From the NCBI GenBank assembly GCA_024695065.1, contig JAILIX010000022.1, positions 1 to 39,159 of the forward strand: a stretch of 39,159 bases of DNA. Direction: 5' to 3'. This DNA is from Fretibacterium sp. (GTDB lineage: Bacteria; Synergistota; Synergistia; Synergistales; Aminobacteriaceae). Shown piece after piece: positions 8,615 to 28,273 of the stretch; the first letter of the stretch is position 1, and each line of letters begins with the position of its first letter. Below the pieces are notes generated by a model. It saw only the letters and a program-made list of their open reading frames with translations, did no database searches and was not told where the DNA came from. A program made the translations under genes and the position numbers.

Positions 8615-8631
8615 CGTGCCCTGCGGGTATG
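8615..8631 (+). repeat. Dispersed palindromic repeat, copy A
   Basis: CGTGCCCTGCGGGTATG forms a 7-bp stem with G-T pairs and a 3-nt loop. It matches copy D at 9754 in 16 of 17 positions, and copies B (11399) and C (15322) on the other strand. It lies in the gap between the HAD gene and proS. Confidence 0.6.
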
Positions 8632-9753: not shown

Positions 9754-9770
9754 CGTGCCCTGAGGGTATG
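9754..9770 (+). repeat. Dispersed palindromic repeat, copy D
   Basis: CGTGCCCTGAGGGTATG differs from copy A at one base, in the loop. Outer arms GGCAG (9747-9751) and CTGCC (9778-9782) could enclose it in a larger hairpin. It lies about 50 bp upstream of htrA, in the 283-bp divergent region 9540-9822. Apart from AT-rich stretches I see nothing else there. Confidence 0.6.
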
Positions 9771-11345: not shown

Positions 11346-11373
11346 AACTTTAATGCAACGGGAGGGGCCTTTA

Positions 11374-11392
11374 CAGAACGTTCCGCGTTCTG
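11374..11392. repeat. Hairpin CAGAACG/CGTTCTG in the htrA-serpin gap
   Basis: A perfect 7-bp inverted repeat with a 5-nt loop sits 6 bp from copy B of the dispersed repeat. It has no T-run, so it is not a normal terminator. Its function is unknown. Confidence 0.5.
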
Positions 11393-11398
11393 CTCCGG

Positions 11399-11415
11399 CA
11401 TACCCGCAGAGCACA
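11399..11415 (-). repeat. Dispersed palindromic repeat, copy B
   Basis: On the minus strand it reads TGTGCTCTGCGGGTATG. It shares both core and flanks (GGCTG before, CCGGAG after) with copy C inside cbiA. It lies between htrA and the serpin gene. Confidence 0.6.
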
Positions 11416-11463
11416 GGCAGCCGGCCGGCGTACTCCCCGACCCCCGGAATGGAGGTATTATGA

Positions 11464-12666
11464 ATGTGTCATCTTAATGGAATCAGCAAGGTAAGCGCGG
11501 TCTGCGCTCTGGTTTCCTCCTTCTTCCTGACTCCCGCGTGGGCGGCCGGAGACACGGCGCAGCCAGACGCGGCTGTAAAAAGTGTCAACCACTTTGCCCT
11601 CCGCGCGGCCAGTCTGCTGGCCCCGAAGGGAGGAGACTTCTTCTTCTCCCCCTACAGCGCCGTCACCGCCCTTGGCATGACTTATGCGGGGGCAAAGGGG
11701 GAGACGGCCGGGGAGATGGAGAGCTCACTGCTGTTCACGCCTGAGCTCCACGCCTCTTTGGGCATGCTGGCTCAGGACTTGGAAAAGAAGCCGGAGGCAC
11801 TGATCACGGCCAACCGCGTGTGGATTCACAAGGGGCTGACCCTTAACCCGGACTTCACTGAAACCCTTCAGCGCGACTATGGGAGCACAGCAGCGGAGGC
11901 GGACTTCATGGCAGACCCCAACGGCGCGAAGAAGCAGATCAACAGCTGGGTTGAGGCGCAGACCCACAACCGCATCCGCGGCCTGATTCAGAAGACAGAC
12001 CCCGATACGCAGATGATCCTTGTCAACGCAATCTACTTCAACGCCAGGTGGGAGAAGCCCTTCAGCAAGGAGAGGACCGCCCCCAGGCCTTTCCATCTTT
12101 CAGCCTCGGAGACGAAGGATGTTCCCATGATGCAGCAGAACAGCCAGCTCATGTACGGGAACGTGGACAACGTAAAACTGCTGCGGCTGCCCTACAGGGA
12201 CCGGCTGTCCATGCTGCTGATTCTGCCGGAGGAGGGCAGCGTGGAAAAAACGCTGAAGGCACTGGCAGAGGATGACAGCCTCTTTAACCGCTGGACACGC
12301 TCCCTTTCCAGGCATCAGGTGGATCTTTGGCTGCCGAAGTTCCGGACGGAGAAGCGCTATGAGCTGAAGGACATCCTTCAGATCCTTGGCGTGCGCCAGG
12401 CGTTCACGAAGGAAGCGGACTTCTCCGGCATGACGGACGACGAAAAGCTCCGCATTGACTCCGTGGTCCACAAGACCTTTATCGAGGTGGACGAGAAAAA
12501 AACCGAGGCTGCTGCCGCGACGGGCGTCGTCATGGTCAGGACAACCGCCGCAGCGCCGCAGGCACTGCCCCGGGCGGAGTTCCACGCCGACCGTCCGTTC
12601 CTCTATTGCATTATGGATGACGCCACGGGAATCATCCTCTTCATGGGACGACAGAGCTTTAAGTGA
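11464..12666 (+). CDS. Secreted serpin (serine protease inhibitor, 400 aa), inhibitory type
   Basis: A Sec signal peptide ends at AWA-AG near residue 27, so the protein acts in the periplasm or outside the cell. The full serpin fold follows, with family landmarks NHFALRAASLL, FFFSPYSAVTALGMTYAGAKGETAGEM, LVNAIYFNARWEKPF and the C-terminal signature FHADRPFLYCIMDDATGIILFMGR. Serpins trap serine or cysteine proteases after cleavage of the reactive loop. The hinge here (TEAAAATG, 347-354) has the small residues of inhibitory serpins, although P15 is Lys rather than Gly. By count, P1 falls near Arg359-Thr360, hinting at a trypsin-like target. The loop is about seven residues longer than in alpha-1-antitrypsin. 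GGAGG lies 8 bp before the ATG; the ATG at 11460 leads to an early stop. Confidence 0.93.
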   Translation: MCHLNGISKVSAVCALVSSFFLTPAWAAGDTAQPDAAVKSVNHFALRAASLLAPKGGDFFFSPYSAVTALGMTYAGAKGETAGEMESSLLFTPELHASLGMLAQDLEKKPEALITANRVWIHKGLTLNPDFTETLQRDYGSTAAEADFMADPNGAKKQINSWVEAQTHNRIRGLIQKTDPDTQMILVNAIYFNARWEKPFSKERTAPRPFHLSASETKDVPMMQQNSQLMYGNVDNVKLLRLPYRDRLSMLLILPEEGSVEKTLKALAEDDSLFNRWTRSLSRHQVDLWLPKFRTEKRYELKDILQILGVRQAFTKEADFSGMTDDEKLRIDSVVHKTFIEVDEKKTEAAAATGVVMVRTTAAAPQALPRAEFHADRPFLYCIMDDATGIILFMGRQSFK

Positions 12667-13370: not shown

Positions 13371-14213
13371 ATGGCCATATTGATGAAGGGGGCAGAGGTT
13401 GCCGCCGGGATGAAGGAAACACTGCTGGCGGAACGGAGAGCCCTGCAGGGAGCGGCTCCAAGGCTGGCCGTCCTGCGTGTCGGCGCGAGGGAGGACGACC
13501 TGGCCTACGAGCGCGGGCTGTCAAAACGCTTTGAAACTCTGGGGCTTGACGTTCAAATTGTGGAACTGCCGGAGGGGATTGGCCAGAGGGATTTTGATAT
13601 GGAATTTGAGCGGGTGAACGGGGACCCCGGGGTGAATGGGGTGCTTCTTTTCCGGCCGCTGCCGGAGGGCCTGAACGACGAACGCGCGCGGCAGACCATC
13701 GACCCGCTCAAGGACGTGGACGGAATGAGCCCCGTCAATGTCGCGAGGGTCTTCTCCGGCAAGGAGGGATTTGCGCCCTGCACGCCCAGCGCTGTGACAG
13801 AGCTTTTGTCGCACTACGGCGTGTCCCTGGAGGGGAAGAACGTGGCGATCGCCGGGCGCAGCCTGGTGGTGGGCCGGCCGCTGGCGATGCTGATGCTGGC
13901 CGCCCATGCCACAGTCACAGTCTGCCACACCCGCACAGCGGACCTCGCAGCGGTCTGCCGGGGTGCCGATATCGTGGTGGCTGCGGCGGGCCGGGCCGGT
14001 GTCATCGGCCCAGACTGCGTAACGGAGCGGAGCATCGTCGTTGACGTGGGCATCAATACAGGCAGGGACGGGAAATTGTGCGGCGACGTGGACTTCGGGG
14101 CTGTGGAGCCCATTGTTTCGATGATCACTCCCGTGCCGGGGGGCGTGGGGGCCGTGACGACCTCCGTGCTGGCAAAGAACCTTCTTAAGGCCGCGAAGTT
14201 ACAGGGCTGGTGA
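13371..14213 (+). CDS. folD: FolD-family methylenetetrahydrofolate dehydrogenase (280 aa), atypical cyclohydrolase site
   Basis: FolD normally oxidises 5,10-methylene-THF to methenyl-THF and hydrolyses that to 10-formyl-THF. The family landmarks KDVDGMSPVN (114-123), the NADP-binding region AGRSLVVGRPLAMLML and the C-terminal TPVPGGVGAVTTSVL are all present. Two residues needed for cyclohydrolase differ. In the YVxxKxK motif (YERGLSK, 46-52) the catalytic Lys position is Leu50. In the usual VQLPLP motif (LFRPLP, 93-98) the Gln position is Phe94. Tyr46 and Lys52 are kept. It may therefore be mainly a dehydrogenase, as known for some acetogen enzymes that work with a separate FchA cyclohydrolase. 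The end of the gene overlaps the convergent cbiA by 15 bp. Confidence 0.9.
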   Translation: MAILMKGAEVAAGMKETLLAERRALQGAAPRLAVLRVGAREDDLAYERGLSKRFETLGLDVQIVELPEGIGQRDFDMEFERVNGDPGVNGVLLFRPLPEGLNDERARQTIDPLKDVDGMSPVNVARVFSGKEGFAPCTPSAVTELLSHYGVSLEGKNVAIAGRSLVVGRPLAMLMLAAHATVTVCHTRTADLAAVCRGADIVVAAAGRAGVIGPDCVTERSIVVDVGINTGRDGKLCGDVDFGAVEPIVSMITPVPGGVGAVTTSVLAKNLLKAAKLQGW

Positions 14214-15698
14214 GGCAAAGGCCTCACATTTTTTCAAAAAATATTCTGCCGCTGCCGGGCAACCCAGCAGGTTGAGGTGGAGATAGGAGGCCAGAACGCC
14301 GCCACGCGCGTAGCCGCCGGGGTAGGTTTCTCCTGTGCGCCTTCTCCTGAACAGAAAGGCATCGGGAAATGGCTCCTCCGCGTCCTTTCTGAGGGAGGAG
14401 AAGTGAAACTCGTGCCCGCGCAGAACCGTACCTCTGGGACCCAGCACGGTATCGCAAAGGGTCGTTGCCTCCACATAACCTACCCTCTGAAGACGGCTGT
14501 TCATCTGGCACGAGGCCGGGACCACGCCCGCCATCCTGAAGGAGCGGCCCTCAAAATCCGTGAGGGAGCGGCTGAGGTACATCAGCCCGCCGCACTCTGC
14601 CAGAATCGGCAGCCCCGATTCCGCTTTAGCGGCGATGTCCCGCCGCATGGAGACGTTGGCCTCCAGCCCGGCCGCGAACATCTCCGGGAAGCCTCCGCCC
14701 AGAATCATTCCATCCGCCGGCGGCAAAGCGCTGTCCCTGAGCGGACTGAAGAAGACCAGTTCCGCTCCGCGCCTCTCCAGGACCTCCAAACTTTCAGGGT
14801 AATAGAAGGAAAAGGCCTCGTCCCTTGCCACCGCAAGACGTACCCCCTGCACCACCACGCGGGGCCCGGGCAGAGGAGAAGGCATCTTCAGCGGAGGCGC
14901 AGACTGCGCCAGGGCAATCAGCGCGTCGACGTCAAGTCCTGCTTCCACCGCAGCCCGGACACGCTCCACACGCCCGGCGTCCTCTGCCTCCTCAACGGGG
15001 GTCAGCCCCAGATGACGCTCCTCCAGGGCAAGCGTGCCGTCACGCTTCAGCGTCCCCAGGAGAGGAATGCCCACGCGGTCCAGGGCTGAGGCGATAATGT
15101 CCCTGTGGGAATCCGACCCCACACGGTTGAGGATGACGCCGCGAAGGTCCACAGATCGGTCGTACTCCCGGAAACCCAGCGCCACTGCTGCGGCGCTCTC
15201 GCCCATGGAGCGGGCGTCAATAACCAGCACCACGGGCAGTCCCAGGAGTTTTGCAATCTCCGCGCTGCTGCTGCCTCCCCGGTCTTCTCCGGCCTCCACA
15301 GGGCCGGAGAGCTCCCTCCGGCATGCCCGCAGGGCATGGCCAGCCCGGCCAAGCCACCGCCGGACAACGCCCTGACAAGGCCGCCTGCACGGGCTCGTCT
15401 GGCCGTCAAACAGCCCCATGACCCCCTCCACCACAGCGATATCCGCTCCCTGTGCGGTGCGGGCAAAGAGGCCCGCCATCGCCGCGCGGTCCATCATCCA
15501 TGTGTCCAGATTATAGACCTCGCACTGCCCGGCCCGGCGCTGGTGGCCGGGGTCGATGTAGTCTGGTCCTGTTTTATAGGCACATATATGAAGACCCCGG
15601 CGGCGCAGCGCGGCCAGAAGTCCGCCGACAATCGTCGTCTTTCCGGAGCCGCTGCCCGCCGCCGCAATGAGAAGCCGGGGAATCAACAGGCTGTTCAT
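14199..15698 (-). CDS. cbiA: Cobyrinate a,c-diamide synthase CbiA/CobB family (499 aa), with internal insertion
   Basis: It amidates the a and c side chains of cobyrinate using glutamine and ATP, in cobalamin synthesis. The N-terminal ATP-binding domain has AAAGSGSGKTT (12-22), AYKTGPDYIDPGH and VVEGVMGLFDG (89-99). The C-terminal class I glutamine amidotransferase domain has GGGFPEMF, the nucleophile in LAECGGLMYLS and the His in GHEFHFS. Between GLFDG and RGGSSSAEIAKLLGLP, where relatives have fewer than ten residues, there are about 40 Arg/Gly/Ala/Cys-rich residues (100-139). The matching DNA holds a dispersed palindromic repeat. The frame is intact, so the enzyme may still work. It lies 20 bp after speD. 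Confidence 0.92.
   Translation of the reverse strand: MNSLLIPRLLIAAAGSGSGKTTIVGGLLAALRRRGLHICAYKTGPDYIDPGHQRRAGQCEVYNLDTWMMDRAAMAGLFARTAQGADIAVVEGVMGLFDGQTSPCRRPCQGVVRRWLGRAGHALRACRRELSGPVEAGEDRGGSSSAEIAKLLGLPVVLVIDARSMGESAAAVALGFREYDRSVDLRGVILNRVGSDSHRDIIASALDRVGIPLLGTLKRDGTLALEERHLGLTPVEEAEDAGRVERVRAAVEAGLDVDALIALAQSAPPLKMPSPLPGPRVVVQGVRLAVARDEAFSFYYPESLEVLERRGAELVFFSPLRDSALPPADGMILGGGFPEMFAAGLEANVSMRRDIAAKAESGLPILAECGGLMYLSRSLTDFEGRSFRMAGVVPASCQMNSRLQRVGYVEATTLCDTVLGPRGTVLRGHEFHFSSLRKDAEEPFPDAFLFRRRRTGETYPGGYARGGVLASYLHLNLLGCPAAAEYFLKKCEAFASPAL
15322..15338 (-). repeat. Dispersed palindromic repeat, copy C, inside cbiA
   Basis: CATGCCCTGCGGGCATG on the minus strand is a perfect 7-bp palindrome with a 3-nt loop. 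Flanks GGCTGGCC and CCGGAG match copy B. A second inverted repeat, TCTCCGGCC/GGCCGGAGA, lies next to it at about 15286-15310. Both sit in the stretch encoding the extra CbiA residues. Confidence 0.6.
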
Positions 15699-26446: not shown

Positions 26447-28273
26447 TCACTCCGTCCAGACGGTGATGGAGGGGAAGCCCCCGCGGGAGCACCGGATGCT
26501 GAAGCGGGGCAGCAGCGCGCGCTCCACAGCCCCCACGGACCGCACGTTCACCCACAGGGGCACCGGGGCCGGTGCTTCGCCGCCCGGACCGGAAGAAAGC
26601 CCGCTGCATGGGTCCGGCTCCCCCGGGTCCATAACAAAAAGCCCCTCATCCTCAAGCCGGCGGATCAGGGCCCTTCGGTCCCCGACTGGGTCAATCCGGA
26701 CCATCAGTCCAAAGGGCGGGATATCCAGCTCCTCACGCAGCGCCAGCTCCTTTTCCCAGAAACGCCCCCAGCCCCTCGCCAGAAGTTCCCGCCACTCCAG
26801 GCCCCGGCGCCGGCTCTGGACCAATACGGTCCGGCCTCCTTTGCCGGTCCCGCAGCCCCGCCAGCAGGACTCCCACACCATGCTGAAGGTCTGGAAGCGC
26901 GCACTGTACTCCGCCCTGCGGAGCTCCGCGTCCAGATCCAGCCAGGCCGCCAGCCCCACGTCCAGACCGTCGCAGAGCGCCAGCGCTCCCCGCGTCCCCA
27001 GAATGAGGGAAGCACTGTCCTCTGTCCGGCCTTTCCCCGGACGATGGGATGTCCTGTCATCATGAAGGAGGACGGGAAAGTCCCGGACCAGACGTCCCGC
27101 CATCGAAGCAAGCGCTTCAAGCCCGGGACGCCGCCCGGACCAGAGCCCTCCCCGGCAGTCCGGGCAGCAGGAGGGAAGGGCCGTTCGGGCCCCGCAGCGT
27201 ACACAACGCAGGCTCCGCCCCGCATCCTCGCTGCGCATGATTCCCCCGCAGCGGGGACAGCGGACCGCGTGGCCGCACTCCGCGCAGAACACCTCCGCGG
27301 CTTCCCCCCGCCGGTCGAGAATCCAGAGGACATGCCGTCCTCCGTCCAGCTCTGCCCGTGTCCGTTCCAGCAGGGAGACCGTCAGGGGCAGCGTCCCCTC
27401 CACGCCGCGCTCCTCTCCTTTGAGAGACCGGCGCACGTCGGCAAAAATCAAATTTTTGCGGTCGGGAAGAACATCACAGGCAGGCTTTGCCCGGAGGAAG
27501 GTCCTGGCGGAGGGGAGCCGGCCTCCCAGGACAAGCTCCGCCCCCAGCAGGGACGCCCGTTTTCCCGCAAGGCTGCGGGCGGGAATACGCGGAGGCCGCT
27601 GAGAGACGTAAGCGGGGTTGGCCTCGTCCTCCACCATAATCCGGTCTGCCCTCAGAGGGGCAAAGACTCCCCCCGGCGGAGCAACGACAATTCTTACCTC
27701 CCCCGCCCTCACGGCACGCCAGGTGTCCCACAGCTTCCTGCCGCCGGTGGAGGGCCACAGCACCGCTTCGGAACGCAGGGAGGCCGGGAGCCCCGTGAAG
27801 AATGCCTTAGCCGCGGACGCCTCCGGAAAAAGGAGCAGCGTCCGCCCCGCCTCCCCGAGACGGCTGAGGTAAAAATCCCGACGCTCCCCGTCCCAGGGAT
27901 TGAAACAGTGAAGTTCACGGAAAGCAGCCGGCTCCGGTGTCTCCTCCGGCACAGGGGGAACTGCCTCCCCCCTGAGGAACGGCTGGGGGCAAAAAGTCTG
28001 AAGGGCCAGCCCCGCCCCGCAGAGGAAAGTGCTCCCCACCCACAGCGCCAGGGGCCACAGGCCGGCGTTCAGGGCACAGGTCTCATCAAGAATATCGGCG
28101 ATACGGCGAATAGTATTGGAAGGCTCCGTCCGGGCAGGCTGCAGGACAAACCCCACGCGCAGTCCTCTGCCCACAGGAACACGAACACGCGCGCCGGGGG
28201 GCGGAACACGGTCCGCCTCGTAGGTCAGTGCGTTCCACCACGGCCCCGGGACGATAACGTCAACAAGGGGCAT
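26447..28273 (-). CDS. priA: PriA-like primosomal protein (608 aa) with lost ATPase motifs
   Basis: PriA restarts stalled replication forks. The N-terminal DNA-binding domain (VDVIVPGPWWNALTYEA, GARVRVPVGRGLRVGFV) is recognisable. The eight zinc-binding cysteines lie in four pairs (330/333, 339/342, 357/360, 370/373), and the C-terminal domain includes ELDIPPFGLMVRI. The helicase core is degenerate. The Walker A position (usually GVTGSGKTE) reads CFNPWDGER at about 123-131. DEEH is EDEA at 215-218, and GSATPS is GGRLPS. ATP-driven unwinding is thus very unlikely, though fork binding and primosome assembly may remain. Actinobacterial PriA proteins show a similar loss. It lies 6 bp after coaBC and ends the long housekeeping run. 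Confidence 0.88.
   Translation of the reverse strand: MPLVDVIVPGPWWNALTYEADRVPPPGARVRVPVGRGLRVGFVLQPARTEPSNTIRRIADILDETCALNAGLWPLALWVGSTFLCGAGLALQTFCPQPFLRGEAVPPVPEETPEPAAFRELHCFNPWDGERRDFYLSRLGEAGRTLLLFPEASAAKAFFTGLPASLRSEAVLWPSTGGRKLWDTWRAVRAGEVRIVVAPPGGVFAPLRADRIMVEDEANPAYVSQRPPRIPARSLAGKRASLLGAELVLGGRLPSARTFLRAKPACDVLPDRKNLIFADVRRSLKGEERGVEGTLPLTVSLLERTRAELDGGRHVLWILDRRGEAAEVFCAECGHAVRCPRCGGIMRSEDAGRSLRCVRCGARTALPSCCPDCRGGLWSGRRPGLEALASMAGRLVRDFPVLLHDDRTSHRPGKGRTEDSASLILGTRGALALCDGLDVGLAAWLDLDAELRRAEYSARFQTFSMVWESCWRGCGTGKGGRTVLVQSRRRGLEWRELLARGWGRFWEKELALREELDIPPFGLMVRIDPVGDRRALIRRLEDEGLFVMDPGEPDPCSGLSSGPGGEAPAPVPLWVNVRSVGAVERALLPRFSIRCSRGGFPSITVWTE

Follow-up and report, generated by a model that had tools for sequence, protein, structure and literature searches.

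The window, a stretch of 39,159 nucleotides from a species of Fretibacterium, encodes a cobyrinic acid a,c-diamide synthase (CbiA) that matches NF002204 over its full length (490 bits, E 5e-147, as compared with a curated cut-off of 254). When aligned with the proteins of congeners, it retains the GSGSGKT, EGVMGLFDG, and AECGG sequences and has extra residues located between GLFDG and SSSAEIAKLL. The distance from VEG to the start of SSSAE is 54 residues in the window CbiA as compared with 16 in those of G001, G002, G003, G015, and G014, a difference of 38 residues or 114 bp. The alignment thus confirms the extra segment noted in the original prediction, but its size, given there as about 36 residues, is corrected to 38, or to 37 plus one flank codon. 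The CbiA orthologues in the three other genomes of the genus are 80–84% identical to the window protein and all have an empty site; in close congeners, the loop after GLFDG comprises approximately five residues. GLFDG is likewise followed by a short loop and S(S/T)AEIAK in approximately 80 other CbiA proteins, mostly from other phyla, with the exception of some cyanobacteria. The features of the locus and the other repeat copies in the window are collected in Table 1.

Table 1. Positions of cbiA, its insert, and the related repeats in the window
Feature	Position	Strand	Evidence
cbiA, cobyrinic acid a,c-diamide synthase, 499 residues, with insert	14199–15698	minus	NCBIfam NF002204, translation, congener alignment
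Inserted element copy, 111 bp, encoding the extra ~37–38 residues QTSPCRRPCQGVVRRWLGRAGHALRACRRELSGPVEAGED...	about 15292–15402	minus	absent from three congeners; element homology; conserved ends
Nested ~17-bp palindrome CATGCCCTGCGGGCATG, exact; itself a dispersed unit of the genus	15322–15338	minus	sequence, copy counts
Hairpin TCTCCGGCC...GGCCGGAGA: the element's variable 3' hairpin, extended by a few host bases	15286–15310	minus	sequence; where the model places the 3' hairpin
Intergenic partial element copy with nested palindrome, flanked by the HtrA-type protease gene and by the gene that begins near 11464	11366–11439	minus	covariance model R1, 24.9 bits, E 0.011
Stand-alone small palindrome CGTGCCCTGCGGGTATG	8615–8631	plus	17-mer search
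Stand-alone small palindrome CGTGCCCTGAGGGTATG, upstream of the HtrA-type gene	9754–9770	plus	17-mer search

The insert in cbiA

The interval 15282–15401 previously assigned to the insert was nearly right; comparison with the congeners moves its limits to those in Table 1, which are ambiguous by a few bases. The 5' end (GGCCAGACG) and the 3' end (GTGGAGGCC) both match the conserved ends of a two-hairpin element that is dispersed in the genus. The repeat copy expected inside the insert is present there as an exact palindrome, located between the two hairpins. The adjacent hairpin was also found, but it does not lie wholly within the insert because its final bases extend into the host flank.

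The best local score of the insert against six palindrome-bearing copies of the element was 54, whereas 2000 dinucleotide shuffles of the insert gave a mean of 21.3 ± 3.0 and a maximum of 37, so that none of the 2000 was as good. Within the whole window, the only stretch that outscores the insert is the second copy, at 11366–11439, which is 95% identical to an element of G001 over 38 bp. The cbiA copy is degenerate and for this reason is poorly recognized by the general covariance model (R1, built from 16 copies with the cbiA copy left out), which gave 15.5 bits and E 0.45; nhmmer with the main model gave only 3.4 bits, a failure that reflects both the nested palindrome and the degeneracy. A BLAST search of the insert against its own genome returned weak pieces only, so the copies of the congeners were needed. 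Assignment of the cbiA copy to the family is accordingly based on the palindrome-bearing copies and the conserved ends.

The degeneracy of this copy would also fit ordinary loop growth in a variable region of CbiA, with a coincidental likeness to the repeat. The length of this loop does vary, and some cyanobacteria have long inserts there. Nevertheless, we consider loop growth very improbable because none of the shuffles matched the similarity of the insert, which only the 11366–11439 copy surpasses in the window, because both of its ends match element ends, and because the close congeners have so few residues at this position.

A sequence search of the PDB with CbiA found no CbiA-type structure. 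In an AlphaFold2 prediction for the window CbiA, the mean pLDDT is 87 and the pTM 0.86, and residues 98–138, corresponding to the insert, are the only stretch with pLDDT below 50. The insert is therefore predicted to be a flexible surface loop of approximately 38 residues directly after the conserved GLFDG, in a fold that is otherwise intact. Apparently it is translated as an extra protein segment, and CbiA would retain its activity. It is conceivable that the insertion was kept for a benefit to the enzyme, such as regulation or partner binding: the segment is still open although degenerate, hence the insertion is not very recent, and the site adjoins the conserved Asp98-Gly99. However, only one species carries this segment, the model predicts that it is disordered, and the CbiA of a congener (G001) has an independent copy elsewhere, in the opposite orientation and before the ARDEAFSFYYPES segment. 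In addition, a comparable insertion in a Rickettsia guanylate kinase was reported to be neutral or slightly detrimental (PMC2229807). A benefit to CbiA thus appears quite improbable, if marginally less so than loop growth.

Structure and distribution of the element

The longer composite was recognized from the flanks of copies of the small palindrome. The unit is approximately 93 bp in length, comprises two hairpins, starts with CGGCCAGAC, and ends with GGAGGCC. In some copies, a palindrome of 17–18 bp, placed either between the hairpins or inside the first, extends the unit to approximately 111 bp; at a given position, some copies of the larger element have this palindrome and others lack it. 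The four genomes of the genus contain 8, 9, 3, and 7 copies of YRTGCCCTGCGGGYATG with one mismatch or fewer; each of 21 other Synergistales genomes has at most one, and a reversed control pattern has no occurrence in the genus at the same threshold. In the window, the 17-mer palindrome has four matches at up to three mismatches, as compared with 0.39 expected.

In the four genomes of the genus, model R1 identified 9, 27, 37, and 14 copies (~87 in all); it found 14, 7, and 6 in three sister genera represented by one genome each, and none in 34 further genomes; most of the genomes compared are draft assemblies. In a draw of 151 genomes from the phylum, six were positive, all of them from the carrier genera. 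No copies were found in phages or plasmids, nor in viral contigs by exact 21-mer. Rfam gave no match for the element in the window at the gathering threshold and none in six loci at E 0.1. Tandem arrays are also seen: four copies at 96-bp spacing in G003 (L288, C68:2600–2982) and two abutting pairs in G009 (C1:70811–71007 and 2046821–2047015).

Covariation in the two-hairpin fold is strong. Among 77 aligned copies, 95.1% of the paired cells hold standard pairs, and double changes number 338 as compared with 118 ± 10 in shuffled alignments and 71 or fewer with slid partners. Fitting the alignment to the model favors structure, but the margin is nonetheless large. G·U pairs occupy 258 cells as compared with 46 for A·C, which assigns the fold to a single strand, either as RNA or as single-stranded DNA. 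The elements have on average 4.18 open frames out of six as compared with 3.59 ± 0.10 in shuffles, so the unit itself is poor in stop codons.

An extra stretch of 48 bp in the window PriA (26486–26800, minus strand) was considered as an element copy and rejected; it is an unrelated linker, a Gly/Pro-rich extension of approximately 16 residues relative to a congener.

Copies inside other genes

In-frame copies, identified within family-profile matches, occur in at least 16 other conserved genes. They include (i) copies within the reading frames of PdxA, PriA, the CbiA of a congener, DnaX (two), a PotA-type ATPase, an FAD-dependent oxidoreductase, an RqcH-type protein, WhiA, and CobQ, (ii) further in-frame copies in mannose-6-phosphate isomerase, PrmC, DUF2344, a MalK-type ATPase, a P-type ATPase, and FolD, and (iii) copies near the N terminus of a LeuB-type dehydrogenase and RuvX. 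Coding copies are found in either orientation, and no fewer than five of the six frames are represented. Six clean pairs of empty and filled sites were obtained by comparison with a congener or sister genus, and the net gain is divisible by three in each: 93 bp in PrmC, PdxA, PriA, and DUF2344, 90 bp in RqcH, and 111 bp in mannose-6-phosphate isomerase, where the copy carries the nested palindrome.

The count of in-frame copies is biased because they were found through open frames. A scan of codon usage in both flanks, itself weak, scored 18 of 78 copies, of which 10 had the same frame on the two sides, 7 a shifted frame, and 1 the opposite strand. Most of the shifted cases look on reading like gene boundaries, and only L277 (G001 C225:3999–4092) is clearly an interior out-of-frame copy; it has a stop inside the gene, which is disrupted. 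By its motif we take the host gene to be a recombination-promoting nuclease/transposase (Rpn/PDDEXK-type), and it looks dispensable. In-frame copies in conserved genes together with an out-of-frame copy in a dispensable gene are as predicted for random insertion followed by selection, and they speak against splicing or bypass.

Under the latter explanation, the element would be removed from the RNA as a tiny intron or skipped by the ribosome as a mobile translational bypassing element, and the protein would lack the segment. Such behavior would be in keeping with an element that is strongly structured on one strand and dispersed in coding genes. However, skipping needs neither a length in multiples of three nor an open host frame, yet the net gain is divisible by three in every clean pair and the copies in conserved genes are open in the host frame; the use of either orientation and of five frames or more, a size of ~93 nucleotides that is far below that of self-splicing introns, and the location of the one clear interior out-of-frame copy also argue against it. 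In our judgment, removal or skipping has scarcely any chance of being correct. The original proposal that an element landed in cbiA and left the frame open is instead supported by the empty sites in the congeners, by the homology that 0 of 2000 shuffles equaled, and by the in-frame copies in many other genes.

Three copies in G002 (L276, L282, and L239, at TsaE, ZnuA, and PssA) are located at gene ends and form new C-terminal tails or lie between neighboring genes. The copy in PrmC (L241/L247) is common to G000 and G001 and absent in G002, and that in PriA (L262/L269) occurs in G001 and G002 but not in G000. Identity between G000 and G001 is 91% at prmC, as compared with ~81% at cbiA. The incongruent sharing of the PrmC and PriA copies and the high identity at prmC suggest gene transfer, loss, or precise excision.

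Proposed mobility and relationship to known elements

We conclude that the cbiA insert is very probably one copy of a non-autonomous, structured mobile element that is limited to four genera of the Synergistaceae and whose coding copies persist when they are in frame, free of stops, and in a tolerant loop. The element would spread in either orientation, both between and within genes, and folding of one specific strand, as RNA or single-stranded DNA, would be part of its mobility. In essential or useful genes, copies would persist only if the gain is a multiple of three, the host frame acquires no stop, and the site is a tolerant loop, and the host protein would then include the additional translated residues. 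In cbiA, the element would have landed in the loop after GLFDG, adding the flexible segment described above to an otherwise intact enzyme. As judged from sequence, the "selfish" DNA of these bacteria apparently survives by being readable as protein.

Searches of the four genomes of the genus (G000–G003) found neither a Y1 transposase (PF01797) nor a reverse transcriptase (PF00078); because these are drafts, 81–100% complete, both absences are provisional. A target duplication, which the original prediction named as something to look for, was not confirmed, as no consistent duplication was seen at the filled and empty sites. In PdxA and mannose-6-phosphate isomerase, the target sequence itself is CGGCCA and resembles the element's 5' end.

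The many intergenic copies and the strong, covarying hairpins could also indicate that the element is primarily a regulatory or transcript-end RNA, similar to a REP or a terminator, that multiplies in intergenic DNA and enters genes by accident. This explanation is partly compatible with the mobile element proposed here. We regard it as unlikely, although less so than the other alternatives, given the number of coding copies in both orientations, the lack of an Rfam match, and the lack of a REP-type transposase in the genus.

To our knowledge, selfish DNA that lies in frame within conserved genes has been described mainly in Rickettsia and Wolbachia. The putative mobile element of the Synergistaceae adds a second system that appears to be unrelated to these. 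Its dozens of copies, its clean empty sites and tandem arrays, and the covariation of its fold make two questions accessible to testing: the way in which such elements move, and whether they can serve as a source of new protein segments. The CbiA insertions at different sites in two congeners, together with those in CobQ and FolD, provide ready pairs of enzymes with and without the element. In the open-access literature, no such element was found described in Synergistaceae (subscription journals were outside the search).

The Rickettsia palindromic elements (RPE), reportedly described by Ogata in 2000 and 2002, and their Wolbachia counterparts are the closest known kind. Like the Synergistaceae element, they are hairpin-forming, are dispersed both between genes and in frame in conserved genes that have empty orthologues, and encode a segment tolerated by the protein. 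Their size (~100–150 bp, with about 105–146 bp as the defining range) is of similar scale, although the basic Synergistaceae unit is shorter. RPE form one long palindrome with 12-bp terminal inverted repeats, whereas the Synergistaceae element has two adjacent hairpins and a nested 17-bp palindrome, and its outer 5' end pairs with the middle rather than with the 3' end. It also differs in its phylum (Synergistota), its strand-specific fold, and its GC content of ~71%. The likeness drawn here is one of features, and RPE serve as a working analogue: the element appears to work like them and is not classed with them. In R. conorii, nearly half of the RPE copies are located in genes (PMC10969869), and the Rickettsia guanylate kinase with an RPE insert is still active with an altered affinity (PMC2229807). 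Wolbachia and Methanocaldococcus are cited as further carriers of protein-coding palindromes (PMC2996958).

ORF fusions with the enterobacterial RU-1/ERIC, RU-2, and RU-3 repeats are mostly C-terminal, and none was found inside a conserved domain (Delihas 2007, PMC2759123). These are likewise small mobile repeats that are read through as protein, but the Synergistaceae copies sit inside catalytic domains. The consensus structure has no terminal inverted repeats, which together with the lack of a consistent target-site duplication distinguishes the element from MITEs. REP and REPIN sequences are short extragenic palindromes dispersed by a trans-acting RAYT (Y1) transposase. They resemble the Synergistaceae element as short dispersed palindromes, but the latter has coding copies and no Y1_Tnp partner in the four genomes of the genus, and no GTAG/CGTC tag was seen on reading its ends. 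We lean slightly toward the broader view that the element represents a new lineage of protein-coding mobile hairpins outside the Rickettsiales, that its strand-specific, covarying two-hairpin fold is the substrate of a trans-acting mobilization machinery that acts on RNA or single-stranded DNA, and that it has repeatedly added peptide segments to housekeeping and cobalamin enzymes of the Synergistaceae.

The same insertion in distant CbiA proteins with different DNA would have spoken against an element in cbiA. Distant CbiA proteins lack it, and inserts are present in some cyanobacteria (L119, L126, L136, and L137, from Planktothricoides, Nostoc, and Rhizonema). These Nostoc-type inserts lie in the same loop, are in frame, and vary in length, but their DNA is unrelated to the Synergistaceae element and is not GC-rich. 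The different DNA in the same loop points to a tolerant site and not to an inherited domain, and the insertions of hairpin DNA in this loop in different phyla are independent events. Two of the three cyanobacterial inserts that were tested are strongly hairpin-forming as DNA (z –6.1, –4.4, and –1.3), and those of Nostoc consist of hairpin-forming heptamer-like repeats.
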